Shown here piece by piece: positions 1 through 52,942 of a DNA stretch of 64,000 nucleotides. This DNA is from Neisseriaceae bacterium (GTDB lineage Bacteria > Pseudomonadota > Gammaproteobacteria > Burkholderiales > Neisseriaceae): positions 1-64,000 of the forward strand of contig JAGBKK010000022.1 of the NCBI GenBank assembly GCA_017934045.1, in the 5' to 3' direction. The notes beneath the pieces were generated by a model. That model saw nothing but the letters and a program-made list of their open reading frames with translations, made no database searches and was not told where the DNA came from. A program made the translations under genes and the position numbers. Positions within the stretch are counted from its first letter, which is position 1; every line of letters starts with the position of its first letter.

Positions 1-1
1 C

Positions 2-526
2 TTATATCGTTGCATTTATTTAGACCCCAAAGGAAAATTGGGCAATAAACCCTATATTCAATTAGCACATCGTGATAGGGTTACTTTTTATCGAGAAACG
101 GAAAGAAAAAATCCCAAAGAATGGAAAAAATATAAGAAAAATATCCAAAAATCTCAAAAAAATATTGTGAAACAATTTGCAAAAATTAAAAAGAATATTA
201 AAAAATTGTTTCAGCAAGTCAATAAAGAAGAGAAAAAACAATTAGTTGAAATTGTTAGTTTTTTATTGCTACAATTAAGTTATATGGTGAAACATTCTGC
301 CTATCAGGAAGAACAAGAATGCCGTATTTTTCAATTTGCTCCTTTTGATAGTGATAAGATTAAAAAGAATATTAACGAAAAACGCATGTATATGGAATAT
401 CAGCCCATACACAATTATGTTAAAAAAATCTACCTTTCGCCATATGCAGAACAATATGCCGATATGTTTCGGGCGTTGAGTAATGGCAGAGTTGAAGTGC
501 GTTCTTCGGATAATCCGTTTAGATAA
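2..526 (+). CDS. DUF2971-like protein, C-terminal part (5' end outside window)
   Basis: The reading frame is open from base 2 and has no clear start inside the window, so the gene begins upstream; the TTG at 38 is probably internal. The visible 175 codons are Lys-rich in the first half (possible coiled coil). They end with 'YQEEQECRIF' and, near the C-terminus, 'VKKIYLSPYAEQYADMF'. A short 'EE.ECR' block followed by a '(V/I)Y(L/I)(S/G)P.A' block is what I know from the C-terminus of DUF2971 proteins, a family of unknown function often found in accessory islands. Assignment rests on those two blocks only. A hairpin terminator follows about 140 bp downstream. Confidence 0.45.
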   Translation, partial: LYRCIYLDPKGKLGNKPYIQLAHRDRVTFYRETERKNPKEWKKYKKNIQKSQKNIVKQFAKIKKNIKKLFQQVNKEEKKQLVEIVSFLLLQLSYMVKHSAYQEEQECRIFQFAPFDSDKIKKNINEKRMYMEYQPIHNYVKKIYLSPYAEQYADMFRALSNGRVEVRSSDNPFR

Positions 527-528
527 TT

Positions 529-543
529 TTCAGGCAGCCTGAA
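529..543. repeat. Palindromic DNA uptake sequence (first of many copies)
   Basis: TTCAGGCAGCCTGAA contains AGGCAGCCTGAA on one strand and AGGCTGCCTGAA on the other, the AG-kingDUS and AG-simDUS dialects known from Kingella and Simonsiella. Other copies begin near 704, 5597, 6889, 8649, 9720, 10912, 12048, 12199, 14400, 17911, 17950, 17976, 41212, 46319, 47663, 48861, 50757, 52606, 54669, 58304, 61570 and 63134, among more. Most lie just after a stop codon; some lie inside genes. Confidence 0.9.
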
Positions 544-667
544 AGGTTTTTGTATCGCCGTTTTTCATTGTCAGGAGATTGCGTACGCCGTGATAAATCA
601 CGGCTCGTAATGACGGTTTTGGGGTAGGCAGGGCAACTTGTTGCCCACGCGTTTTAATCAAAAAAAC

Positions 668-699
668 AAACAGCGAAAACCCAAAACTTTCGCTGTTTT
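668..699 (+). terminator. Intrinsic terminator after the DUF2971-like gene
   Basis: AACAGCGAAA pairs with TTTCGCTGTT across a nine-base loop and is followed by a run of T. It separates the upstream gene from nrdA. The rest of the 527-937 gap holds two uptake sequences, the NrdR boxes, and a 'gggcaacttgttgccc' hairpin that recurs elsewhere in the window. Confidence 0.7.
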
Positions 700-864
700 T
701 ATTTTTCAGGCTGCCTGAAAATATATAATCATTTGTTTTTATTATAAAAATATCAATAAGACATTTTTTACCACATTCTATTAACGCAGGCACAAAATAA
801 ATGTTCAATAAAAACAAACACTGTGATAAAACCTTGATTTTTGTCCATTGCGATAATGGGGAAA

Positions 865-912
865 ATACTATATATTGTGGTCAAATTCAATTTAAAACAC
901 TATATGTAGTGT
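865..912 (+). promoter_or_regulatory. Tandem NrdR boxes upstream of nrdA
   Basis: Two 16-mers match the NrdR-box consensus acaCwAtATaTwGwgt: ATACTATATATTGTGG at 865-880 and ACACTATATGTAGTGT at 897-912. Their starts are 32 bp apart, about three helical turns, the usual arrangement for NrdR, the ATP/dATP-sensing repressor of ribonucleotide reductase genes. The second box ends 25 bp before the nrdA start. No such box is seen before nrdB, so this is the only NrdR control point for both subunits. The nrdR gene is not in the window. Confidence 0.8.
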
Positions 913-937
913 TTTTTCCATTTTTCACAGGTGTGCG

Positions 938-3217
938 ATGAACGATTTTTCAAAACTGAAAGTAACCAAACGGGACGGCAGATTAGAAGCGATCGATTTG
1001 GATAAAATTCACAAGGTGATTACTTGGGCGGCGGACGGATTGAATAATGTGTCGGTTTCGCAAGTGGAGTTGAAGTCGCACATTCAGTTTTATAACGGTA
1101 TTCGCACGGCGGATATTCACGAAACCATTATCAAGGCGGCGGCGGATTTGATTAGCGAAGAATCGCCTGATTATCAATACCTTGCCGCTCGGCTGAATAT
1201 TTTTCATCTGCGTAAAATCGCTTTTGGCGGTTTTGAACCGCCGCATTTGCTGGCTCATACACAAAAGTTAGTGGCAGAAAAACGCTATGATAAGGCTTTG
1301 CTTACTGATTATTCAGAAGATGAATTTAATGAGTTAAATCAATATATTAGCCATTGCCGTGATATGAATTTTTCGTATGCGGCAGTCAAGCAGTTGGAAG
1401 GCAAATACTTGGTGCAAGACCGTGTTACCAAGCAGGTGTTTGAAAGTCCGCAGTTTTTGTATATGCTTGTGGCAATGTGTTTGTTTTCGCAATATCCAAA
1501 AGATAAGCGATTGATTTATATTAAAAAATTTTACGATGCGGTGAGTTTGTTCAAAATTTCGTTGCCTACGCCGATTATGTCTGGGGTGCGAACGCCAAGC
1601 CGTCAGTTTAGTTCTTGCGTGTTGATTGAGTGCGATGACAGTTTGGATTCGATTAACGCCACCACTTCGTCTATTGTGAAATATGTGTCGCAACGTGCAG
1701 GCATTGGCATTAACGCAGGTCGCATTCGTGCGGTGGGTAGCCCCATTCGTGGTGGTGAAGCTCAGCACACGGGCTGTATTCCGTTTTTCAAGATGTTTCA
1801 GGCAGCGGTGAAATCGTGTTCGCAAGGCGGCGTGCGTGGCGGTGCGGCAACGCTGTTTTATCCTTTGTGGCATTTGGAAGTGGAATCGCTTTTGGTGCTT
1901 CGCAATAATCGTGGCGTGGAAGAAAATCGGGTGCGTCATTTGGATTATGGCGTGCAAATCAATAAAACGCTGTATCAACGCTTGATTAAAAGCGAGAAAA
2001 TTACGCTGTTTTCGCCTGCTGATGTGCCTGATTTATATGAGGCATTTTTCGCTGACCAAGAAAAATTTGCACAATTATATGCCAAATATGAAGCGGACGA
2101 AACCATACGCAAACGCAGTATTCCTGCGGTTGATTTATTCTCCTTGATGATGCAGGAGCGAGCCAGCACAGGGCGAATTTATATTCAAAATGTCGATCAT
2201 TGCAATACGCACAGCCCCTTTATTCCTGAAATTGCTCCTGTGCGGCAATCAAATTTATGCTTGGAAATTGCTCTACCAACCAAGCCCTTAAATGATATTA
2301 ACGATGAAAACGGTGAAATTGCGTTATGTACGCTTTCTGCCATTAACTTGGGTGCGTTAGACAATTTAGACGAATTAGAAAATTTAACCGATTTAACCGT
2401 GCGTGCGTTAGACGCACTGTTGGATTATCAAGATTATCCTATTCGTGCCGCCAAAATCGCCACAATGAAACGGCGTGCATTGGGCGTGGGCGTGATTAAC
2501 TATGCGTATTATTTAGCCAAAAACGGCAAAAAATATTCGGACGGTTCGGCTTTTGCCTTAACGCACAAAACCTTTGAAGCCTTGCAATATTATTTACTTA
2601 AAGCGTCCAACCAGTTGGCAAAAGAAAAGGGAGCGTGTCCAGCTTTTCTTGATACGCGTTACGCACAAGGCATTCTGCCGATTGATACCTACAAAAAAGA
2701 CTTGGATGCAATTTGCAATGAGCCTTTGCATTACGACTGGGAAGCCTTGCGTGCCGATATAAAACAATACGGCTTACGCAACTCCACGCTCACTGCCCTA
2801 ATGCCGTCCGAGACTTCCAGCCAAATTTCCAACGCCACCAACGGCATTGAGCCACCACGCGGTTTGGTGTCGGTCAAACAATCCAAAGACGGCATATTAA
2901 AACAAGTAGTGCCCGAAATCGAACGCCTAAAACACGGCTACGAATTGTTGTGGCACATTCCCGATAACGATGGCTACCTGAAATTAGTTGGCATTATGCA
3001 AAAATTTGTCGATCAAGCCATATCCGCCAACACCAACTACGACCCAAAACGCTTTGAAGGCGGCAAAGTGCCGATGAAAATCTTACTTAAAGACTTACTC
3101 ACCGCCTATAAATACGGCTTAAAAACCCTGTATTATCAAAACACAAGAGACGGAGCCGATGACGGACAAGCCGATTTGGAAGAAGACGGCTGTGCAGGCG
3201 GGGCGTGTAAGATTTGA
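938..3217 (+). CDS. nrdA: Ribonucleoside-diphosphate reductase class Ia, alpha subunit
   Basis: Catalytic large subunit of aerobic ribonucleotide reductase, which makes dNDPs from NDPs together with NrdB. At 759 aa it matches the usual length (E. coli about 761). The N-terminus is an ATP cone ('KVTKRDGRLEAIDLDKI'), the allosteric activity site. The active-site cysteines are seen at about C227 ('SSCVLIE') and C441 ('NLCLEI'), and the C-terminal redox pair lies in 'DGCAGGACKI'. AGGTG lies nine bases before the ATG. The paired NrdR boxes lie just upstream. In most related bacteria nrdB follows directly; here the next 6.5 kb is a restriction-modification cluster and nrdB comes only at 9767. No terminator is visible after the stop. 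Confidence 0.97.
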   Translation: MNDFSKLKVTKRDGRLEAIDLDKIHKVITWAADGLNNVSVSQVELKSHIQFYNGIRTADIHETIIKAAADLISEESPDYQYLAARLNIFHLRKIAFGGFEPPHLLAHTQKLVAEKRYDKALLTDYSEDEFNELNQYISHCRDMNFSYAAVKQLEGKYLVQDRVTKQVFESPQFLYMLVAMCLFSQYPKDKRLIYIKKFYDAVSLFKISLPTPIMSGVRTPSRQFSSCVLIECDDSLDSINATTSSIVKYVSQRAGIGINAGRIRAVGSPIRGGEAQHTGCIPFFKMFQAAVKSCSQGGVRGGAATLFYPLWHLEVESLLVLRNNRGVEENRVRHLDYGVQINKTLYQRLIKSEKITLFSPADVPDLYEAFFADQEKFAQLYAKYEADETIRKRSIPAVDLFSLMMQERASTGRIYIQNVDHCNTHSPFIPEIAPVRQSNLCLEIALPTKPLNDINDENGEIALCTLSAINLGALDNLDELENLTDLTVRALDALLDYQDYPIRAAKIATMKRRALGVGVINYAYYLAKNGKKYSDGSAFALTHKTFEALQYYLLKASNQLAKEKGACPAFLDTRYAQGILPIDTYKKDLDAICNEPLHYDWEALRADIKQYGLRNSTLTALMPSETSSQISNATNGIEPPRGLVSVKQSKDGILKQVVPEIERLKHGYELLWHIPDNDGYLKLVGIMQKFVDQAISANTNYDPKRFEGGKVPMKILLKDLLTAYKYGLKTLYYQNTRDGADDGQADLEEDGCAGGACKI

Positions 3218-3248
3218 TGAATTGTTAAAAATAAAGGAGCTACATATT

Positions 3249-11955: not shown

Positions 11956-11996
11956 GGGGGTGCTTTGTCAAGCACCCCCTATACAGTACTGTATAG
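11956..11996. promoter_or_regulatory. Adjacent hairpin and perfect palindrome upstream of the lipoprotein gene
   Basis: GGGGGTGCTT and AAGCACCCCC form a hairpin with a four-base loop (11956-11979), followed at once by the perfect 18-bp palindrome CTATACAGTACTGTATAG (11979-11996). They lie about 45-85 bp before the start codon of the minus-strand lipoprotein gene. The second could be an operator; the regulator is unknown. Confidence 0.4.
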
Positions 11997-12400
11997 GCGT
12001 TGGCGACAATCAAAACGCCAAACGGCGTGAGCGTTTAGCGTAGGCTTTCAGGCTGCCTGAAACATAATAAGAGACTTCTACAAAACTGGTAGATATTGGA
12101 TACAGCAAGCGTAGGGTGGACAACTTGTTGCCCACGCTGAAATGGTGATTGTGTGAATATTTTTATATTTTATGGTAAAAATGACAATAAAACACCATTC
12201 AGGCTGCCTGAAAAATGAAAACAGCGTTTGCAACAAGTTACACATTCTACACTTGTTAATATGCTGATTTTTATGATATTTTTATACTTTGTGGTAAAAA
12301 GAACAACAAAACTTATTCATGCTGCCTGAAAAGTTTGCCTAATATATTGCACTGCATTAAAATCCCACTTCCACTCATCAACTTAAAAAGGATACGCATT
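11997..12400. other. Intergenic stretch with uptake sequences, no gene
   Basis: Contains uptake palindromes near 12048 and 12199, a degenerate one near 12318, and a 'gtagggtgg...ttgcccac' segment that recurs across the window. No convincing reading frame is seen. Confidence 0.6.
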
Positions 12401-12716
12401 ATGTTGAAAAAATTGATTTTTTCTGCTGTTTCTGTTTTCGGTGTGTCTTTTTCATTAGCGGCGGTGAATTTAAACACAGCCACAGCGGACGAGTTGGAAG
12501 CCTTGCCAAGGTGTGGGCAAAGCCAAAGCGGCAGCGATTATTGAATATCGTGAGCAAAACGGCGGTTTTAAAAGCAAAGAAGAATTAAAACAAGTCAAAG
12601 GCATTGGCGATAAAATTTATGAACAAGTAGAAAAAGACATTGAAGTTACGCCTGCCAAAACCACCCCAAAACCCAAAGCCGCTAAACCTGCGGTAAAAAA
12701 AGAAACGAAAAAATAA
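12401..12716 (+). pseudogene. comEA: ComEA-type competence DNA-binding protein, frameshifted
   Basis: ComEA binds incoming double-stranded DNA in the periplasm during transformation. The first frame from ATG 12401 gives a signal peptide ('MLKKLIFSAVSVFGVSFSLA') and '[15 protein letters not shown]', the start of the helix-hairpin-helix domain. The rest of that domain, '[18 protein letters not shown]', '[16 protein letters not shown]' and a Pro/Lys-rich tail, continues in the next frame to 12716. The break is at 'cca agg tgt ggg'; removing one A restores 'L-P-G-V-G-K'. So the gene carries a one-base insertion. It may be real or a sequencing error; competence would be affected unless another copy exists. 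Confidence 0.85.
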
Positions 12717-12730
12717 AGAGTTATAGCAAT

Positions 12731-12758
12731 AAAAGCAGACCTTAATCGGTCTGCTTTT
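12731..12758 (+). terminator. Intrinsic terminator after comEA
   Basis: AAAAGCAGACC pairs with GGTCTGCTTTT across a six-base loop. An uptake palindrome follows near 12765. The remaining sequence up to dgt (13035) holds a miniature inverted-repeat element and no gene. Confidence 0.8.
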
Positions 12759-12827
12759 GTGTTTTCAGGCTGCCTGAAAAACACTTTGGTGTATTATCTA
12801 TATGAGAGTCCTGCAAAACTTATCTTT

Positions 12828-12934
12828 TATAGTCAATCAACTTCAAAATTGAAATGCGTTGGCTCGCCTTGCCGTATTATTTATACTGTCGCAGGCAAAA
12901 ACGCCTTTTATTGTTTTGAAGTTTAACGACTATA
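12828..12934. mobile_element. Miniature inverted-repeat element, family 1
   Basis: 107 bp bounded by TATAGTC and GACTATA, inner ends 'aacttcaaaa' and 'ttttgaagtt'. Shares its core 'gccttgccgtattatttatactgt' in part with the copies at 22428 and 45391 (the latter inverted). No coding capacity. The size and TA ends recall Correia elements of Neisseria, but the sequence is different. Confidence 0.75.
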
Positions 12935-13034
12935 TAAAACAATTCGTTGAAATTCTTCGTTTTTCTACGGAAAATTCAGAATGACAAGTTTTGCAAGAGT
13001 CTCTGCAATGAAAAGACCATTATGCCCATTTACC

Positions 13035-14384
13035 TTACACCATACCAATCCCCGACACTTCGCGTGCCATTCTGGCAGCGGCGTTGTCGGTCATACCGCC
13101 GACAAAGTCAAGCACTTTCATATAGGCAGCGTAGGGCGTGTCGTTTTCGTTTAGGGTGTGTTCGCCCAACAGCGATAACGCCAATATTTGTCGGTGATTT
13201 AACGCCTTTTTCGTGGTCAGAGCGAACGCTGTGGGAATGAACAGCGACAAAATACTGCCCAAGCACGGATAAGCGGCGATTTCGGTGATGACTTTGCTTT
13301 CGTGGCGAAATACTTGATTGGCGGCGATTTCTTTGGCGTTTGCCAAAGTTTCGCTAATTTCAGCTTCGGTTACCGAAATTAAATCTTTGGCTGGAAAATC
13401 GCCTGCCAATAGGGCAGTGTGGTGCGTGATAAATGTGTTGGCAACGCTGTCAATCGCTTTGCCAATCGCTATGCCACGCAACATTGCACAGCGTTGGCGG
13501 TCGGTAGTGGCAGACCACGAATCCACTGTTTCGCCTGCCATAGGGGCAAAAAGCCGTTCGACTTCGCGTGCGTCTAACATACCAATTTCTACCGCGTCTT
13601 CCAAATCCAATAAGGCGTAGCAAATGTCGTCTGCCGCTTCCATTAAGTAGGATAGGGGGTGTCTTGCCCAAGTATTGCGTGCGATTTTGGGTAAGCCTAA
13701 AACTTTGGCGGTTTCTTCAATAAAGGGCAATTCGGTGCGATAAATATTGAATTTGCCTTTTTCTTTGGCACGATGGGCGTTGGCAGTCCAAGGGTATTTC
13801 ATTAGCGTACCAATGCTTGCCGCCGTAAGCCGCATACCGCCTTGATGACGATACATTTCTAAATTGGCGACAATCCGCAAAGTGTGGGCGTTGCCTTCAT
13901 AAGTTTGGACATCAGCCAATTCTTTTTTGGATAGGCATTGCAGATAAACGGCGTTTTCAGGCTGCCTGAACCAATCTCGCAAAGCGGCTTCGCCTGTGTG
14001 TCCGAACGGCGGATTGCCCATATCATGCGATAAACAGGCAACCTGAACAATAGAGCCAATGTCAGACGGCGTATAGCCATCGGGCAGATAGCCCAATTTT
14101 TCCAACATAACCCCCACTTGATTGCCTAAACTGCGTCCGACACTTGCCACTTCCACGCTGTGCGTTAGGCGATTGTGGGTTAAATCGTGCTTGGCAAAGG
14201 GGTGAACTTGCGTTTTGCGTCCCAATCGTCTGAAACTGCCGCTAAACACCACGCGGTCGTAGTCAATATGAAAATCGGTTCGCAAAACATTTTTGCCTTC
14301 TGTGGTCGAACGCGTGGCGGTGCGGATAATTTCGCCATTTTCCACTTTAAAGCGTTGCGTGCTGAGTAATTGTTGCCAGTTCAT
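13035..14384 (-). CDS. dgt: Deoxyguanosinetriphosphate triphosphohydrolase-like protein
   Basis: 449-aa HD-domain dNTPase that removes triphosphate from dGTP or other dNTPs and helps set the dNTP pool. The N-terminal 'SFRRLGRKTQVHPF' and metal-binding 'HNRLTHSVEVASVGRSL' and 'CLSHDMGNPPFGHTGE' are diagnostic. AAGGAA precedes the ATG. An uptake sequence inside the gene (about 13968) is translated as 'RQPEN'. It stands alone, convergent with the element-rich gap after comEA. Together with nrdAB it is one of the dNTP-pool genes in the window. Confidence 0.92.
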   Translation of the reverse strand: MNWQQLLSTQRFKVENGEIIRTATRSTTEGKNVLRTDFHIDYDRVVFSGSFRRLGRKTQVHPFAKHDLTHNRLTHSVEVASVGRSLGNQVGVMLEKLGYLPDGYTPSDIGSIVQVACLSHDMGNPPFGHTGEAALRDWFRQPENAVYLQCLSKKELADVQTYEGNAHTLRIVANLEMYRHQGGMRLTAASIGTLMKYPWTANAHRAKEKGKFNIYRTELPFIEETAKVLGLPKIARNTWARHPLSYLMEAADDICYALLDLEDAVEIGMLDAREVERLFAPMAGETVDSWSATTDRQRCAMLRGIAIGKAIDSVANTFITHHTALLAGDFPAKDLISVTEAEISETLANAKEIAANQVFRHESKVITEIAAYPCLGSILSLFIPTAFALTTKKALNHRQILALSLLGEHTLNENDTPYAAYMKVLDFVGGMTDNAAARMAREVSGIGMV

Positions 14385-46337: not shown

Positions 46338-46661
46338 TTAAAACAACAAAAACTGTTCAGCATTCACCTTTTTTTCTTGTCGTGTGCTGCTACCGATTAA
46401 CAGTTTCATACCAGCATATTGTTTTTCGGTAACTTCCAAGCAACGCACATTGCCGTCTTTGGGCAGCATTTGAATTAAACGCCGCTCGTGTTTGGCAACC
46501 GCGTCCCGTCCCCGAACAATTCTGGAATAAACCGATAATTGCAACATAGAATAACCGTCTTTAATTAACGATTTACGGAAACGATTTGCAATCTTTCTTT
46601 CTTCCGCAGTTTTAACAGGCAAGTCAAAAAAAACAATAATACGCATAAAACGATTACTCAT
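46338..46661 (-). CDS. cas2: CRISPR-associated endoribonuclease-like Cas2
   Basis: 107 aa. '[20 protein letters not shown]' with the conserved Asp, then '[13 protein letters not shown]', and the C-terminal '[12 protein letters not shown]'. Joins Cas1 to form the spacer-integration complex. Start ATG 46661, overlapping the cas1 stop by eight bases; the longer upstream frame lies within cas1. No CRISPR array follows: only 80 bp remain before ubiE. Confidence 0.93.
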
Positions 46662-47565
46662 ATTGACACTCATTAGCGTATGATATTTCAGGCAGCCTGA
46701 AAAAATCTGCATTTTGATGATGAAAAACCGCTGTAAGCGATTTAACCATTTGTTCCATTGCCGATAAAACACTGTATATTTTTTGATTAAACAGCATTTC
46801 ATAATTGAGTAATTTAACTAATTGATATTTATCAGGCGGTATCAATTCATCGTTCAGGCTGCCTGAAACTAATTGCGTATAAATTTCTAAATCCACAATT
46901 TGACGAAAAACTTCCATTAAATCATCTGCTAAATTAAATTGATTTAATTCACTTTTATGCCACAATCCTAATGCAGGCAAAAAGCCGTATGCCACCAAAA
47001 CTCTTGCCACAGCCGAACGCATAATCGAATAACCATAATTTAATCTTATATTTACAGGCGTATCAATACCACGCGAAAAACCATTACCAAATAATGCAGG
47101 AAAATATAAAGCAGCAGCTTTTGCTTCGCATTTATCTAAATCATTCGCTTTAACACTGTTGGATAAAGCTAATAATTTTTGCGATATTATATCTTGACCT
47201 GCCCATTTTAATACCAAAGATTGATGATAAATTTTTTGGCGAATAATTTGTTGCCACAGAATTGATTTGATTTCCTCTGATAAAGAAATTTGCAAAGACA
47301 ACATTTTCAAAAAACGGCTGTGTTGCGAAAACGACAAAAACTGCCCGCACGGCAAAAAATGCTCATCGCACACAATCAGCGTTACGTCGTGTTGGGCAAT
47401 GGCGGTTAAAAGCGGGGCAGTCATCACCACTTCACGGCTATCCACCACAATCACCGCAATATCTTCCAAAGGCACAGTAATTTTGTTGTCTTGACTAATA
47501 AGTAACTGATTGTTTTGCAAAGATAATTTTGCAGGTTGAGAAATAAACACACTTCGCCACGACAT
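46654..47565 (-). CDS. cas1: CRISPR-associated integrase Cas1 (type II)
   Basis: 303 aa, type II Cas1 that integrates new spacers with Cas2. '[20 protein letters not shown]', '[19 protein letters not shown]', the metal-binding Glu in '[14 protein letters not shown]', and '[21 protein letters not shown]' with His and Asp/Glu ligands. GGAG lies seven bases before the ATG. It runs away from cas9, whereas the normal type II-C order is cas9-cas1-cas2 on one strand. An uptake sequence is translated at 46857 ('VSGSLND') and near 46690 ('FFRLPEI'). Confidence 0.95.
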
Positions 47566-47723
47566 TATACTGCTCCTTTTTTTTGAAATGTTTTTAATTA
47601 TCTGTGGATTAAAAATATAATACTTTGTTTTTTATCAATAAATATTGTATTTATGAATATTTTTCAGGCAGCCTGAAATTATTTTGTTCGTTACGGTGGG
47701 TAAGAATACTCTTTCTACAATAG

Positions 47724-48136
47724 ATTGATTTTTTAAATAAAAAACACAAAAACAATAGTCGCAAAATAATGCAAAAATGCTATTTTTGCTTGATTTTTTG
47801 GCATTGCGTTTTTTATTGATAAATCAAATATTTGTTATTTTTTTATTGACTTCCAAGTGGTATATAGTTGCCCCCCATTTTGGGGTGGGCTATAATTAAA
47901 AATGGCAACGAACGCAATCTATTACGGTTATAGCCACCCCCCAAAATTAGGTAGCCTATATACCACTACTTAAATTTTGAGGGGTCTTGTGTGCTGTAAT
48001 AAGAGCCGTTTATGGCATTCTTTTTAGAAATTTGGTTTTTAGGGATTTCTTTGAAGAGTGAAGCTCGCGTGGTAAATCATATCCACTAACCATAAACAAA
48101 CAATCAAAACCGACAAGTTAAACGCTTGTCGGTTTT
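47724..48136 (+). repeat. Left arm of an inverted repeat flanking cas9
   Basis: Imperfect inverted copy of 52214-52605. Shared landmarks, in order from outside to inside: 'aaaaaacacaaaaacaatag' region, a GCAAAAA hairpin, 'ttttattgataaa', the repeat-like element, a 30-bp interval, its inverted partner, GCTGTAATAAGAGC, GCTCGCGTGGTA, ATCCACTAA, CAAACAATCAAAACCGAC and the terminator stem. Differences are spread throughout, so the duplication is not recent. Confidence 0.8.
47860..47963 (+). CRISPR. Single CRISPR-repeat-like unit, 30-bp interval and inverted anti-repeat (left)
   Basis: The 37-bp element 47860-47896 starts GTATATAGTTGCCCCCCA and ends TTTTGGGGTGGGCTATAAT. It matches the layout of Neisseria type II-C repeats, including the 3' end 'GCTAYAAT', which in Neisseria is the -10 box inside each repeat. 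After exactly 30 bp comes 47927-47963, its partial reverse complement: eight end bases pair, a middle segment mismatches (bulge), the rest pairs again. That is the repeat/anti-repeat geometry of a tracrRNA. It is not an array. Confidence 0.6.
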
Positions 48137-48140
48137 GCCT
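47903..48140 (+). ncRNA. Candidate tracrRNA, left copy
   Basis: Transcription should start about seven bases after TATAAT at 47891-47896 and run through the anti-repeat (47927-47963), a tail with GCTGTAATAAGAGC and GCTCGCGTGGTA, to the hairpin ACCGACAAG/CTTGTCGGT at 48106-48136 followed by T. The tail has an extra segment not in the right copy (about 48015-48055), so it may be the less active one. Confidence 0.55.
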
Positions 48141-48379
48141 TTATACAATATTTCAGGCAACCTGAAATATTGGTTTTCATCATTTTCATCGCACCTTGCG
48201 GTGCGTTGGTGGGTTAGAAACCCACCCTACGGCGGTAGTCATTCGGTGCATTTGTTATGGCAAGGCTCGCAATAACAGTAGTTTATGTAGGGTGAAATTT
48301 TAGCCCACTGTAACGAACGAAATAATTTCAGGTAGCCAAAAAAAATATAACTCATTGAAAAAAATTATTTTTTTTATAT
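48137..48379. other. Spacer between left tracrRNA and cas9 promoter
   Basis: No gene. Holds a degenerate uptake sequence (48151-48165) and the segment 'cgcaccttgcggtgcgttgg' with 'gtgggtttctaac' type sequence, which recurs inverted at about 52745-52785 outside the right arm. Confidence 0.55.
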
Positions 48380-48408
48380 TTGAATAATGATTTTAAATTT
48401 GTTATGCT
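48380..48408 (+). promoter_or_regulatory. Likely cas9 promoter
   Basis: TTGAAT at 48380-48385 and TATGCT at 48403-48408, spacing 17, about 25 bp before AAGGA and the cas9 ATG. Confidence 0.5.
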
Positions 48409-48441
48409 GTTTTTTTCACACGGATATAAAGGATAAGCAAA

Positions 48442-51400
48442 ATGGCACAGCAACAACACAATTATATTATCGGTTTGGATTTAGGCATTGCGTCTGTGGG
48501 TTGGGCGTGTGTGGCAGTGGATATTTTTACCGATAAAGACGGTAAGGAGCAAGCACAGCCGATAGGGTTGATTGATTGTGGGGTGCGGTGTTTTGCCGCC
48601 GCCGAAAATCCGAAAAATGGCGAGAGTTTGAATTTTGCACGCCGCCAAGCACGCAGTCAAAGACGCACCATTGCCCGCCGTGCCAACCGTATGCGGCAAG
48701 TGCGAAAATTGTTGTTTAAATACGGACTATTAACGGCAAACGAGTTTCAGGCTGCCTATTGTCAAAATCCAAAACATAAAAAAGACAAAGATACAACGCT
48801 TATTAAAGAACGCAATGAAAAATTATTGAAAAAGATAGGTATTCCTGAACAACAACTGCTTTCAGGCAGCCTGAAAAATGATGAAAAAGCCTTTTTCTCT
48901 AATGTTTGGCAGTTGCGAGTTGAAGCCCTACACCGCAAATTAGAGAGAGCAGAATTTGCGGCGGTGATTTGTCATTTGGTGAAACACAGAGGTTATCGTT
49001 CAACAAGAAAATCAGAACGAAAAAATGCGGACGCAGAAACAGGCAAAATGCTAAAAGGCGTTACGGAAAATCATAATTTATTAGAAAATAAAGAATACCA
49101 AAGCCCTGCGGAAATTGCGGTTCATTATTTCTTTAAAGAACACGGTCAAATGCGAAATAAGCAAACACTTGCTTACAAACGCATAAGCAAAGGCGAAAAC
49201 AAGGGGCAGTTTGAATTAGACGCACAGGGGCAGAAAATTCCCATTATTAAAGACGGCGTTCATCAAAAAGAAGGCTCTTATCTGCACACCTTTAACCGTT
49301 TGGATTTAGAAAACGAATTACAACTGATTTTTGAACGCCAAAAATCTTTTGGCAATGAGTATGCGGATAAGGCTTTATGCCAAAAAATCAAGCATATATT
49401 GCATTATCAAAAACCTGCCCTGCAAGGCGATGCTTTGAAAAAAATGTGGGGCAAATGTTCGATTTATGAAAATGAATTGCGAGCTCCCAAAGCGTCTTAT
49501 TCAGGCGAACGCTTTGTGTGGATTTCTAAACTGAATAATTTGAAAATCAACAATAAACCACTCACGGAAGAACAACGCTTGTTGCTCAAAGAATTGCCGT
49601 TTGAACAAAGCAAACTCGCCTTTACGCAAGTGCGTAAAAAATTAGGGCTTGCAGACAATGCAACATTTAATTTATGCCGTTATGTTTATGATAAAGACAA
49701 AACCGCTGAACAAAATTTAGCGGATAGCGAAAAAGCAACGCTGTTTGAAGCCAAGTTTTTTCACGAAGTCAAAAAAGCCTATAAAAATTTGCCGAATGAA
49801 TGGGGCAACCTGAAAGATAATCACGAAAAATTAGACCAAATCGGCGAAGTTTTGGCATTTTACAAGGAAGATAAGGATAGAAAACAGCATTTAAGCGATT
49901 TTTCTAATGATGAAATTGAGGCGATTTTAGAGTTAAATTTTGATAAATCGTTGAATTTATCGCTTAAAGCCATTCGTGAAATTTTGCCCTTAATGGAAAA
50001 CGGTTTGCGTTATGACGAAGCCTGTACGCAGGTTTTTGGCAACCATTACGGCAGAAGTAAAAACAAACAAGCCTTTGACAAACTGCCGCCGATTGATAAA
50101 AAAGACCCTGACACGCCCAATAATCCAGTGGTGTATCGCACCATAACACAGGCACGCAAAATTATTAACGCCCTTATTGCCCAACACGGCAAACCTTTCA
50201 GGGTGCATATTGAAATGGGGCGAGATTTAGGCAAAAGCCGTGATGAACGCAATAAAATTGAAAAACGCCAAAAAGAAAATCAAGCCGAAAGAGAAAGAGA
50301 ACGAGAGCGTTTTATTGAAAATCACGGTTTTGAACCCAAAGGCAAGGATATTTTGCTGTATCGCTTGTATGATAATCAGCACGGCAAATGTTTGTATTCA
50401 GGAAAACCGATTGATTTAGAACAAATTTTTGAAAAAGGTTATGTGGAAATTGACCACGCCATACCGTTTTCGCGTTCTTGGGACGACAGCCAAAATAATA
50501 AAGTTTTGGTTTTGGGGGCAGAAAATCAAAATAAAGGCAATAAAACGCCGTTTGAATGGCTGGGACACGATGAACAAAAATGGCGTGATTTTGAAGCAAG
50601 AGTGAATGCTTGTCGTTTTTCCTTGCGTAAAAAACAAAATATTTTGCGGCAAGAATATGATGAAGAGAAAGAAAAAGAATTTATTTCTCGCAATATCAAC
50701 GATACGCGTTATGCCACTCGCTACCTGAAAAACTATCTTGAAAATAATTTAGCGTTTTCAGGCAGCCTGAAATATCGTGATGAAAATGGCGAAGAACATT
50801 GTTATCAAAAAGTATTTGCACCGCAAGGGCAGATTACTTCCATACTTCGTCGCTCTTGGGGATTTAGCAAAGTGCGAGAAGATAACGACCGTCATCACGC
50901 ATTAGACGCAATTATAGTCGCTTGTGCCACTCCTTTTGTGCAAAACAAAATCACAAATTGGTATAAAAATAAAGAAAATAAGAATACAAATTTAATGCTT
51001 GAAGAAGATGAACAAGGTGAAAAACATTATTCACTTAAAAAACCTTTTCCTACGCCGTGGTACTTTTTCCGCAATGAAATTAACTTGCGTGTATTTAATC
51101 AAGTAGAAAAAAGCAAAGATGAGTGGGAAGTGTTAGACATTGAACACCGTGATGAACTTCTTGATTTAATTCGCGACAAACTCCCCGACCGTCCTGCTGA
51201 ATTAGCACAACACGAATTTGTGCAACCTTTGTTTGTTTCACGTAAAGTGCGTAAAAAAATTTCAGGGCAAGGGCATTTGGAAACTTTGTATTCCGAAAAA
51301 TCCACGCACAAAAATAAACCGCAAAGCGGCATTCACCTGCGTGGCGGCATTGTGGCAAATGCCACAATGATACGCATTGATGTTTTCCGCCACAAAAAAA

Positions 51401-51903
51401 CGCACAAAAATTATATTGTGCCGATTTACGCACACCAAGCCACAAACGGCGTTTTGCCTAATCGTGCGATTGTGTCAGGAAAAGATAAAGGCACAGGCAA
51501 GAAAAAAGAATGGTTAGAAATGACGGACGAATATGAATTTATCTATTCATTCTATCCATTTGATTTAATTGAAATTCGTGATAAGAAAAATCCTGAAAAA
51601 CGCATTTTTGGGTATTATCGACAATGCAATATTGCAACAGGCGGTGTGGATATTCAACAGCCCGAAGACGACTGGACAAGAATAAAACATTACCAAAATA
51701 AATTTGGTCGTCAAAGAAAATCATCAGATAATGAATCTGACACAACCGCCAAAGATGAAAAACAAACCACTTTATTTCAGGGCGTGGGCATTCAAAATAT
51801 GGAAGTTACCAAATATGCCGTTGATGTTTTAGGACGCAAAATCACCCCGATTGCCCCAGAAGAACGGCAAGGCTTTGATGAATTGTTTCATGATGACGAA
51901 TAA
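48442..51903 (+). CDS. cas9: CRISPR-associated endonuclease Cas9, type II-C
   Basis: 1153 aa, a little longer than N. meningitidis Cas9 (1082). RuvC-I '[14 protein letters not shown]' with Asp13; Arg-rich bridge helix '[20 protein letters not shown]'; RuvC-II '[14 protein letters not shown]'; HNH '[15 protein letters not shown]' with His672; RuvC-III '[16 protein letters not shown]' with Asp822; the C-terminal PAM-interacting region has 'ADNATM'-type block '[16 protein letters not shown]'. All catalytic residues are present. Two uptake palindromes are translated as 'SGSLK' (48861 and 50757). AAGGAT lies seven bases before the ATG. It stands alone between two tracrRNA-bearing inverted repeats, divergent from cas1-cas2. 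Confidence 0.97.
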
Positions 51904-51957
51904 AGCATTTATGCGTAGGGTGGGCAACTTTGAAGCTCCACGCAGTTTTATTCAATT

Positions 51958-52183
51958 TTCAGGCAGCCTGAAACCTTTACAAAACCTATTTATCTATATA
52001 ATAAATGCAGATATTATAGGGTGGGCAGGCTACCCACCAACAACGCCGTGAGAAGTTGATTACTTATTGATATTTAATAAAATTCCGACCTGTCGGGCGG
52101 CTGGTGGGCTGACACGCCCACCCTATAACGATTGCATTTATCATTATGCTTAAAATAGGTTTTGCAAAGGTTTCAGCCTGAAA
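51958..52183. mobile_element. Miniature inverted-repeat element, family 2
   Basis: Begins TTCAGGCAGCCTGAAACC then TTTACAAAACCTATTT, and ends with AAATAGGTTTTGCAAAGG then TTTCAGCCTGAA, a near-perfect inverted repeat of about 34 bp. The interior has 'gtgggcaggctacccacc' hairpins. The ends start with an uptake sequence. A second copy lies at 55585. Confidence 0.65.
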
Positions 52184-52209
52184 AACTCGCAATGACGAAA
52201 TAAATAAAA

Positions 52210-52426
52210 AGACAAAACCGACAAGTTTTAACTTGTCGGTTTTGATTGTTTGGGGGATTGTTGTGTGGATTAGTGGATACCCCTTTTATGTGAATGCACA
52301 CATATACCACGCGAGCGTCTTTTAACCACACTGCTCTTATTACAGCCTGTTCATACCTTTTAAGGTATATAGCCCACCCTTATTTGGGGGGGCGGCTATA
52401 ACAAATAAAGGTAAAACAATTTGCTT
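52210..52426 (-). ncRNA. Candidate tracrRNA, right copy
   Basis: Minus strand: after TATAAT at 52438-52433 and a 30-bp interval comes the anti-repeat (52402-52365), then the hairpin ATACCTTAAAAGGTAT, then 'AGGCTGTAATAAGAGC', 'AGTGTGG', 'ACGCTCGCGTGGTA', and the terminator ACCGACAAG/CTTGTCGGT at 52243-52214. The order AGGC..GU, AAGA..UGUG, ACGCUC resembles the N. meningitidis tracrRNA tail as I recall it. It runs towards the 3' end of cas9. Confidence 0.6.
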
Positions 52427-52605
52427 GATAGGATTATAGCCCACCCCGAAATGGGGGGCAACTATATACCCCTTGAACGCTCATAAAAAAAACGCAACGA
52501 TTTGTTTTATCAATAAAAAATTTAACGCTAAAAAATAAAGCAAAAACACCGTTTTTGCACTATTTTACGACTATTGTTTTTGTGTTTTTTATTAAAAAAA
52601 TCAAT
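52214..52605 (-). repeat. Right arm of the inverted repeat flanking cas9
   Basis: Inverted, diverged copy of 47724-48136, about 4.1 kb away inner end to inner end. The outer part keeps a hairpin GCAAAAAC/GTTTTTGC where the left has GCAAAAAT/ATTTTTGC. An uptake palindrome follows directly outside. Confidence 0.8.
52365..52469 (-). CRISPR. Single CRISPR-repeat-like unit, 30-bp interval and inverted anti-repeat (right)
   Basis: Read on the minus strand, 52469-52433 starts GTATATAGTTGCCCCCCA and ends TTTCGGGGTGGGCTATAAT, one base different from the left unit. The 30-bp interval (52432-52403) is unrelated to the left interval. Then comes the anti-repeat 52402-52365 (38 bp). The core CATTTCG is shared with the N. 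meningitidis repeat. Confidence 0.6.
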
Positions 52606-52942
52606 TTCAGGCTGCCTGAAAACACTTTATCCATTACAGTGGCGTAACGCCCTTATGACGATAATTATTCGCTGCATTTTCCATAGCAAGAAGATGACCA
52701 CGCATAGCCTGTCGGCTATACTCGTTATGACAGAAATGGCGTAGAGTGGGTTTCTAACCACCAACGCACCGCAAGGTGCGATGAAAATGATTAAACTAAT
52801 CTTTCAGGCAGCCTGAAAATTATATAAAATCCACAATCAATTCAATCAACTACCATTTTCAGGCTGCCTGAAACTTTGTTTATAGGGCAATACAGGTTAA
52901 AATCTACCCTTTATCCAATCGACAACAACAGGAGTGCCAAAA
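52606..52942. other. Intergenic stretch before pta, no gene
   Basis: Uptake palindromes at 52606, 52803 and 52859, the recurrent 'ccaccaacgcaccgcaaggtgcg' type segment (inverted relative to 48190), and no convincing frame. Confidence 0.6.

Follow-up and report, generated by a model that had tools for sequence, protein, structure and literature searches.

The window, by which we mean the whole 64,000-nucleotide stretch of DNA that was analyzed, carries a cas2 reading frame, a type II cas1, a cas9 and two copies of a short composite element, hereafter called a unit (Table 1). As in type II-C CRISPR-Cas, the Cas9 is a type II protein with HNH and RuvC domains and its gene is adjoined by cas1 and cas2; its closest solved structures are Cas9 proteins, with which the HNH and RuvC catalytic motifs align. 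Each unit consists of a repeat ending in TATAAT (R1) and, after an interval of exactly 30 bp (S), a partner repeat (R2); R1 and R2 are both quasi-palindromic. Unit 1 (47860-47963, plus strand) sits between cas1 and cas9, and unit 2 (52469-52366, inverted, minus strand) lies downstream of cas9. The two are 86% complementary across 173 nt including R1 and the upstream stretch, and in their alignment R1, R2 and the upstream stretch correspond while S appears unrelated. The last 100 bp of the upstream stretch, or leader, of unit 1 are 88-89% identical to G062 and G059 (G000 denotes the genome of the window, Gnnn:Cnn a genome and contig, and units are named accordingly). Many copies of a DNA-uptake-like sequence (TTTCAGGCAGCCTGAAA) occur around the units (window 47660-52873) and could favor unit exchange by transformation.

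Table 1. Features of the cas locus and of the two units in the window
Feature	Position	Strand	Basis or remark
cas2 reading frame	46338..46802	-	Cas2 domain beginning near ORF residue 53; PF09827 6.6e-15; TIGR01573 4.9e-25
cas1, type II	46654..47565	-	TIGR03639 cas1_NMENI 7.3e-91; PF01867
Unit 1 AT-rich upstream stretch (leader)	47724..47859	+	common to unit 2 and the same locus of two related genomes
Unit 1 R1, promoter-bearing	47860..47896	+	-35 TTGCCC 47868-47873, 17 bp, -10 TATAAT 47891-47896; 10/12 matches
Unit 1 S, 30-bp spacer	47897..47926	+	different in every unit; presumed guide roughly the final 23-24 nt, from a probable start point
Unit 1 R2, repeat part of proposed single guide	47927..47963	+	5' GUUAUAGC pairs with 47993-48000
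Unit 1 antirepeat GCTGTAAT	47993..48000	+	place and sequence match GCTACAAT.AAGG of Neisseria tracrRNA
Unit 1 nexus stem	48003..48066	+	GAGC 48003-48006 with GCTC 48063-48066; helix 5 in alignment, 100% paired, one both-side change
Unit 1 terminator hairpin	48105..48137	+	scan flags opposite strand only; T run after hairpin weak on +
cas9, 1153 aa, type II-C-like	48442..51903	+	TIGR01865 3e-211; Pfam HNH_4 and RuvC domains
Unit 2 terminator hairpin, then TCTTTTTATT	52213..52244	-	terminator scan
Unit 2 nexus stem	52313..52336	-	GAGC 52336-52333 with GCTC 52316-52313
Unit 2 antirepeat GGCTGTAAT	52339..52347	-	alignment of units
Unit 2 R2, repeat part of proposed single guide	52366..52402	-	alignment of units
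Unit 2 S, 30-bp spacer	52403..52432	-	different in every unit
Unit 2 R1 with promoter	52433..52469	-	TTGCCC-17-TATAAT (52461-52433)
Unit 2 upstream stretch	52470..52605	-	common to unit 1

Distribution of units

The genus of the window comprises ruminant-associated, uncultured gut bacteria, and two related Cas9 loci in a named collection come from metagenome-assembled Neisseriaceae of roe deer abomasum and sheep omasum. A scan of 83 genomes of the family for CTATAAT, 27-33 bp and GTTATAG found 15 units in six of the seven genomes of this genus and none in the other 76. The gap was exactly 30 bp in all 15 even though the pattern allowed 27-33 bp, and this constancy, with the restriction to one genus, indicates that the pattern is not due to chance. 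The arrangement originally predicted for both window units, a repeat ending in TATAAT followed 30 bp later by a second repeat, is therefore confirmed and holds across the genus. A search of the same 83 genomes with unit 1 returned units in the genus, several of them on separate contigs in G064. Two to five full units were detected per unit-bearing genome, with five in G064. Downstream of R2, an antirepeat, nexus and terminator hairpin could be read through in 14 of the 15, the remaining unit (G064:C28) being cut by a contig end after the nexus. Units occur between cas1 and cas9 as well as downstream of cas9 in G000, G059 and G062, one in G061 adjoins cas2, and elsewhere they lie beside housekeeping genes; G061:C65 and G063:C134 share one gene neighborhood, read by eye as trmJ/suhB. 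When a covariance model of the scaffold was run against 399 genomes of the order, two matched, both of this genus, and within the genus there were 19 hits in six of seven genomes. The seventh, G060 (85% complete), had neither scaffold hits nor a cas9 hit, and cas9 was not found in the 80%-complete assembly of G063. In G062, from sheep omasum, cas9 is split into two overlapping frames (L098 5253-8781) and both units are intact.

Not counted among the 15 were G064:C40, with a decayed scaffold; G063:C132 and G063:C102, of a second scaffold class; G063:C39, with a second-class scaffold and decayed R1; a second scaffold without R1 in G061:C23; and G064:C102, with R1 and no scaffold. G063:C102 is a 16th, variant unit with 28 bp between TATAAT and GTTGTAGC. 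What appears by eye to be a HigBA-like toxin-antitoxin gene pair separates the R1-less scaffold of G061:C23 from the neighboring full unit (L104 524-1323). The lone R1 of G064:C102, with its upstream stretch (L054 2787-2823), is divergent from cas9 and lacks S, R2 and scaffold; it is possibly a broken unit or R1 serving as a bare promoter. G000 is assembled in 43 contigs, and the draft assemblies of the rest of the genus have 40 to 320. The contig ends at the end of L099 and the start of L100 (G064 C28 and C63) suggest that two tandem units broke the assembly, and more G064 units may be missing.

Promoter and scaffold

In both window unit regions the best-scoring promoter-like site was TTGCCC-17-TATAAT (10 of 12 matches), which lies at the end of R1, in agreement with the original prediction that the repeat end is a promoter. 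These regions held no more promoter-like sites than their shuffled versions did, and the scan by itself therefore proves little. Across the 15 units the -35 element was TTGCCC at 17 bp in ten and at 18 bp in two, TTGTCC at 17 bp in one, and altered in two (G064 C28 and C63). In the variant unit G063:C102 the left part of R1 is missing and TTGCCC-17-TATAAT is retained, which suggests that the promoter is the conserved part of R1. Were transcription to start about 7 nt past TATAAT, the guide would be 23-24 nt long.

The antirepeat was placed by comparison with Neisseria tracrRNAs, which have their own promoter and end in GTTGCTACAATAAGG / GCTACAATAAGG; the stretch of the units matching this end (GCTACAATAAGG) is GCTGTAATAAGAGC / GGCTGTAATAAGAGC. 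This comparison identifies the downstream GCTGTAAT.AAGAGC as the antirepeat, to which R2 (GTTATAGCC) pairs, the start of R2 being complementary to it with two G-U pairs. The antirepeat lies in cis, 18-39 nt past the 37-nt R2, in all 15 units, and not in a tracrRNA separate from the crRNA as in type II-C. Judged from sequence, R2 most likely behaves as a CRISPR repeat with the true antirepeat downstream. It had been proposed that R2 is an inverted partner of R1 and that the antirepeat arose when the last repeat of an array flipped. Inversion is only one reading of R2, as R1 aligned to R2 better in inverted orientation in five of the 15 units, including both window units, better directly in nine, and equally well in one. 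A flipped origin was rejected, with the similarity undecided and a downstream antirepeat, partnered by R2, making a flip unnecessary.

The scaffold alignment comprised 15 sequences, 14 of them distinct. Among the distinct sequences the R2:antirepeat stem was 94% paired, with seven of nine pairs invariant. One pair showed a both-side change in two sequences (GTC/GAC for GCC/GGC) and was broken in three, and the last was broken in four of 14, so that the two innermost pairs were broken in 3 and 4. Of the five covariation measures, three (percentage paired, cells with both-side changes, covariation score) placed the structure as a whole above 499 of 500 column shuffles; the other two, both-side-change pairs (reached by 100 of 500 shuffles) and pair types (455 of 500), did not stand above shuffles. 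With a 24-nt guide, single-sequence folding gave the stem a mean probability of at least 0.88 in nine of 15 units, 0.56-0.58 in two and at most 0.15 in four. Unit 1 folded ambiguously (mean pair probability 0.15), and forcing the stem cost 0.6 kcal/mol. Folding being mixed across units, the scaffold is supported more by comparison than by folding; at the level of DNA sequence, guide, repeat, antirepeat, nexus and terminator follow in order in the units and the stems carry both-side changes. G063 has, alongside the main class, a second scaffold class, possibly for a diverged Cas9 (L171, C102:4164-4265; L170, C132:7135-7239; L181, C39:3546-3663); this class has the antirepeat CCTATAACAAG and a nexus and terminator of its own. 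Here GUUGUAG or GUUAUAG faces CUAUAAC, and the stem formed in two of three folds.

The start of transcription matters to this scaffold. According to the original prediction, an RNA beginning upstream of the first repeat would fold as a natural single guide, but such RNAs would mostly misfold. With R1 included, minimum-energy folds lacked the R2:antirepeat stem in 11 of 15 units (0/9 pairs), had it in part in two (3/9 and 7/9) and had it in full in two; with R1 left out the stem was absent in two of 15, both among those 11, and partial in three (3, 7 and 7 of 9). Pairing of R1 with R2 mostly replaces the stem, and S ends up as a hairpin loop. On these folding models a long RNA from upstream of R1, hiding S in the loop, could be an off state, and we infer that the single guide is a shorter RNA starting inside S. 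An alternative is that the long RNA is itself the product, an autoregulator resembling tracr-L with an R1:R2 fold, S as loop and a guide drawn from the sequence before R1. In all 15 units R1 is complementary to R2, and the two would form a strong hairpin; however, in most units this hairpin displaces the stem between R2 and antirepeat, a scan of both window units placed no promoter-like site on the strand of the unit upstream of R1, and the variant unit lost the outer part of R1 with the promoter part intact. The 24 bases before R1, which had been suggested for comparison with the cas9 promoter and with phage and plasmid sequences, matched only the same place in this or related units among the 12 matches listed per unit, and are therefore improbable as a guide directed at the cas9 promoter. 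This alternative we consider highly improbable.

Spacers

S differs in all 15 units, with a mean ungapped identity of 7.9/30 and a maximum of 16 over 105 pairs. Among the 7 pairs from three syntenic loci, identity is 80-96% in the leader, 89-100% in R1 and 84-97% in R2, with S matching at 2-11 of 30 positions. Conserved flanks around an unrelated S imply that S was replaced as a block with sharp edges, and the view of S as a spacer, advanced earlier for the window units, is upheld in this respect.

Protospacer searches of the two window 30-mers, called for by that view, had no such success: neither these nor the other tested members of the 15 had a significant protospacer. Among phages, for which nine of the 15 spacers were searched, there was no significant match (best E 0.01). 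That best match, of G064:C73 to a major capsid gene of Vibrio phages (23/24), was not taken as significant because nine spacers had been searched and the last two bases fell outside it. Seven of the 15 spacers, searched as exact 19-20-mers, were absent from viral contigs, and unit 1 was not found in plasmids. Whole-unit searches gave weak matches to S for unit 2, e.g. 24/30 at infB of G080, and a few short matches touching S for G064:C89 (19-20 nt, E 0.005-0.04), all taken as chance. Viral contigs contained 23 stretches of the form CTATAAT-30-GTTATAGYC; none matched the scaffold model, and they too are therefore ascribed to chance.

The 28-nt S of variant unit G063:C102 matched three places, in G063 C44, G061 C107 and G061 C7, at 25/28 with the last 21 bases exact and a common 3' flank, GATTTAACCC / GATTTAAC. 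The matched genes form a gene family of the genus, and in G063, where no cas9 was found, the match is self-targeting. On our reading, the frames hit by S resemble large proteins of one family, with calcium-binding-like motifs, and Pfam gave nothing above cut-offs on them. Large calcium-binding-like proteins are encoded at L208 (G063:C44) 1-3233 and L210 (G063:C102) 11958-14135, one family of which is matched by the C102 spacer; contig C102 itself carries the unit plus another protein with such motifs. Spacers derived from DNA of relatives are known in Neisseria, and apart from its self-targeting in G063 the match would fit spacers acquired in this way.

Alternatively, the units could be fixed regulatory RNAs of the scaRNA kind that steer Cas9 to, or pair with, a chromosomal gene. 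The only good match of S is to chromosomal genes of the genus, one of them in the same genome, and a CRISPR-linked scaRNA of N. meningitidis has been proposed to be sgRNA-like (PMC13431127). The guide of a regulator should, however, be conserved, and at syntenic loci S is unrelated; moreover, with up to 3 mismatches allowed, S of unit 1 matched nowhere else in its own genome and nowhere in 82 other genomes of the family. We regard fixed regulators as very unlikely. Nor is there one fixed guide against a cas promoter, as in tracr-L, S being different in each unit and without a match within 7 mismatches in the cas loci examined.

Arrays

Around cas9 of 20 relatives, arrays of 6-62 repeats were present in 18, and the tracrRNA, where found, was separate, with its own promoter-like sequence, and ended in GCTACAATAAGG. 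A repeat scan found no such multi-repeat array in the window, in 12 other stretches of the genus, or in one stretch of neighboring genus g8 (L108); the one exception among these stretches was a two-copy repeat of another kind in L101. Queries with R1 and R2 against G000 and the family returned units, half-units and short partial hits and no array, with no further copies of R1 or R2 in G000, these queries covering only repeats resembling R1 or R2. CRISPR repeats of unrelated sequence, which would have spoken against the original prediction, did not appear; the tests on G000 likewise covered only repeats resembling R1 or R2.

This raises the alternative that the units are tracrRNA genes with a decayed array end, R1 and S being a leftover promoter and the true array being lost or unassembled. 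R1 is in the orientation of the Neisseria repeat (six units compared), the genomes are drafts, and G064 contigs bearing units often end a few hundred bases from the unit. Decay would, however, yield neither an S of exactly 30 bp in all 15 units nor its wholesale exchange at syntenic loci. Furthermore, a pairing partner for the antirepeat is already present in cis, the six unit-bearing genomes yielded no array, and the five full units of G064 exceed what a tracrRNA would require. We therefore think it unlikely that the units are merely tracrRNA genes.

Discussion

Patterns established in the present study are the architecture of the units, block exchange of S, both-side changes in the stems, and the presence of cas1, cas2 and cas9 where no array was found. 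They are probably best read as a type II-C variant in which the array has been replaced by dispersed, one-spacer, natural sgRNA genes. R1 would be a CRISPR repeat kept as promoter, and transcription would begin a few bases into S, as with repeat-borne promoters in Neisseria. The predicted RNA would open with a guide of about 23-24 nt from S, followed by R2 as the repeat and then by a short loop, antirepeat, nexus and terminator. With crRNA and tracrRNA in one molecule, Cas9 may load and cut with neither an array nor a separate tracrRNA, and the memory of the genus would be held in dispersed one-spacer units. With the flanks constant, S would be swapped cleanly as a 30-bp block, and adaptation may proceed by Cas1-Cas2 or by allelic exchange. 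That this amounts to working array-free adaptive immunity, in which Cas1-Cas2 (or natural transformation) rewrites the single spacer in place, is a tentative proposal that we hold to be plausible and somewhat short of probable. Spacer replacement by acquisition at R1 followed by recombination between R1 and R2 was considered and not adopted because the product keeps the left end of R1, which is unable to pair with the antirepeat.

Among the closest known systems is type II-C of Neisseria: Cas9 is about 50% identical over the aligned part, cas1, cas2 and 30-bp spacers are shared, and there is a -10-like box at the repeat end and an GCTACAAT.AAGG-like antirepeat and nexus. Promoters within repeats have been described in that system (PMC5052741). 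Neisseria has arrays and a separate tracrRNA, whereas here no array was found, crRNA and tracrRNA appear fused, and units stand singly at several loci. The tracr-L of Streptococcus pyogenes is a natural single-guide RNA for Cas9 (PMC11417352; PMC8730458), and in the use of one natural RNA as single guide it resembles the RNA predicted here from sequence. However, tracr-L has a fixed short guide to a cas promoter and exists beside an array, while each unit here has a full spacer and no array was found. An sgRNA-like transcript has also been predicted in type II-A of Listeria monocytogenes (Guzina 2018, PMC6199352), with repeat-like segments and a tracrRNA-like tail in one RNA; in the relevant section of that paper it is a single regulatory candidate with no set of spacer-swapped units, compared with 15 units here. 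Miniarrays, delocalized crRNAs and repeated exaptation of repeats have been reviewed (PMC8730458). Miniarrays and delocalized crRNAs are similar in having one spacer between two repeats, or guides off the array, but on our own reading their scaffold lies outside the unit, whereas here the tracrRNA part is inside each unit. OMEGA systems (IscB with omegaRNA) likewise provide a single-RNA guide for a relative of Cas9 (PMC8730458), but OMEGA guides belong to transposons, in contrast to the type II Cas9, Cas1, Cas2 and spacer-like S found here. Finally, a scaRNA of N. meningitidis has been proposed to act like an sgRNA (PMC13431127). By these accounts, natural single guides so far known or proposed are regulators: tracr-L, the Listeria transcript and scaRNA. 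A literature search found no account of dispersed, array-free single-guide units, most subscription papers being outside its reach.

Single-guide RNA is viewed as a simplification of Cas9 achieved by engineering, built by hand in laboratories. This lineage appears to have reached the single-guide solution, and for changing guides as opposed to one fixed regulatory target. If the array-free reading is true, memory would be a swappable set of sgRNA genes and not a growing chronicle, organized much as OMEGA guides are, and array-finding software would overlook such systems. The units would also supply natural compact scaffolds for Cas9 tools and show a route by which crRNA and tracrRNA became fused, a fusion that would allow one useful spacer per unit and so raise the question of how spacers are exchanged.
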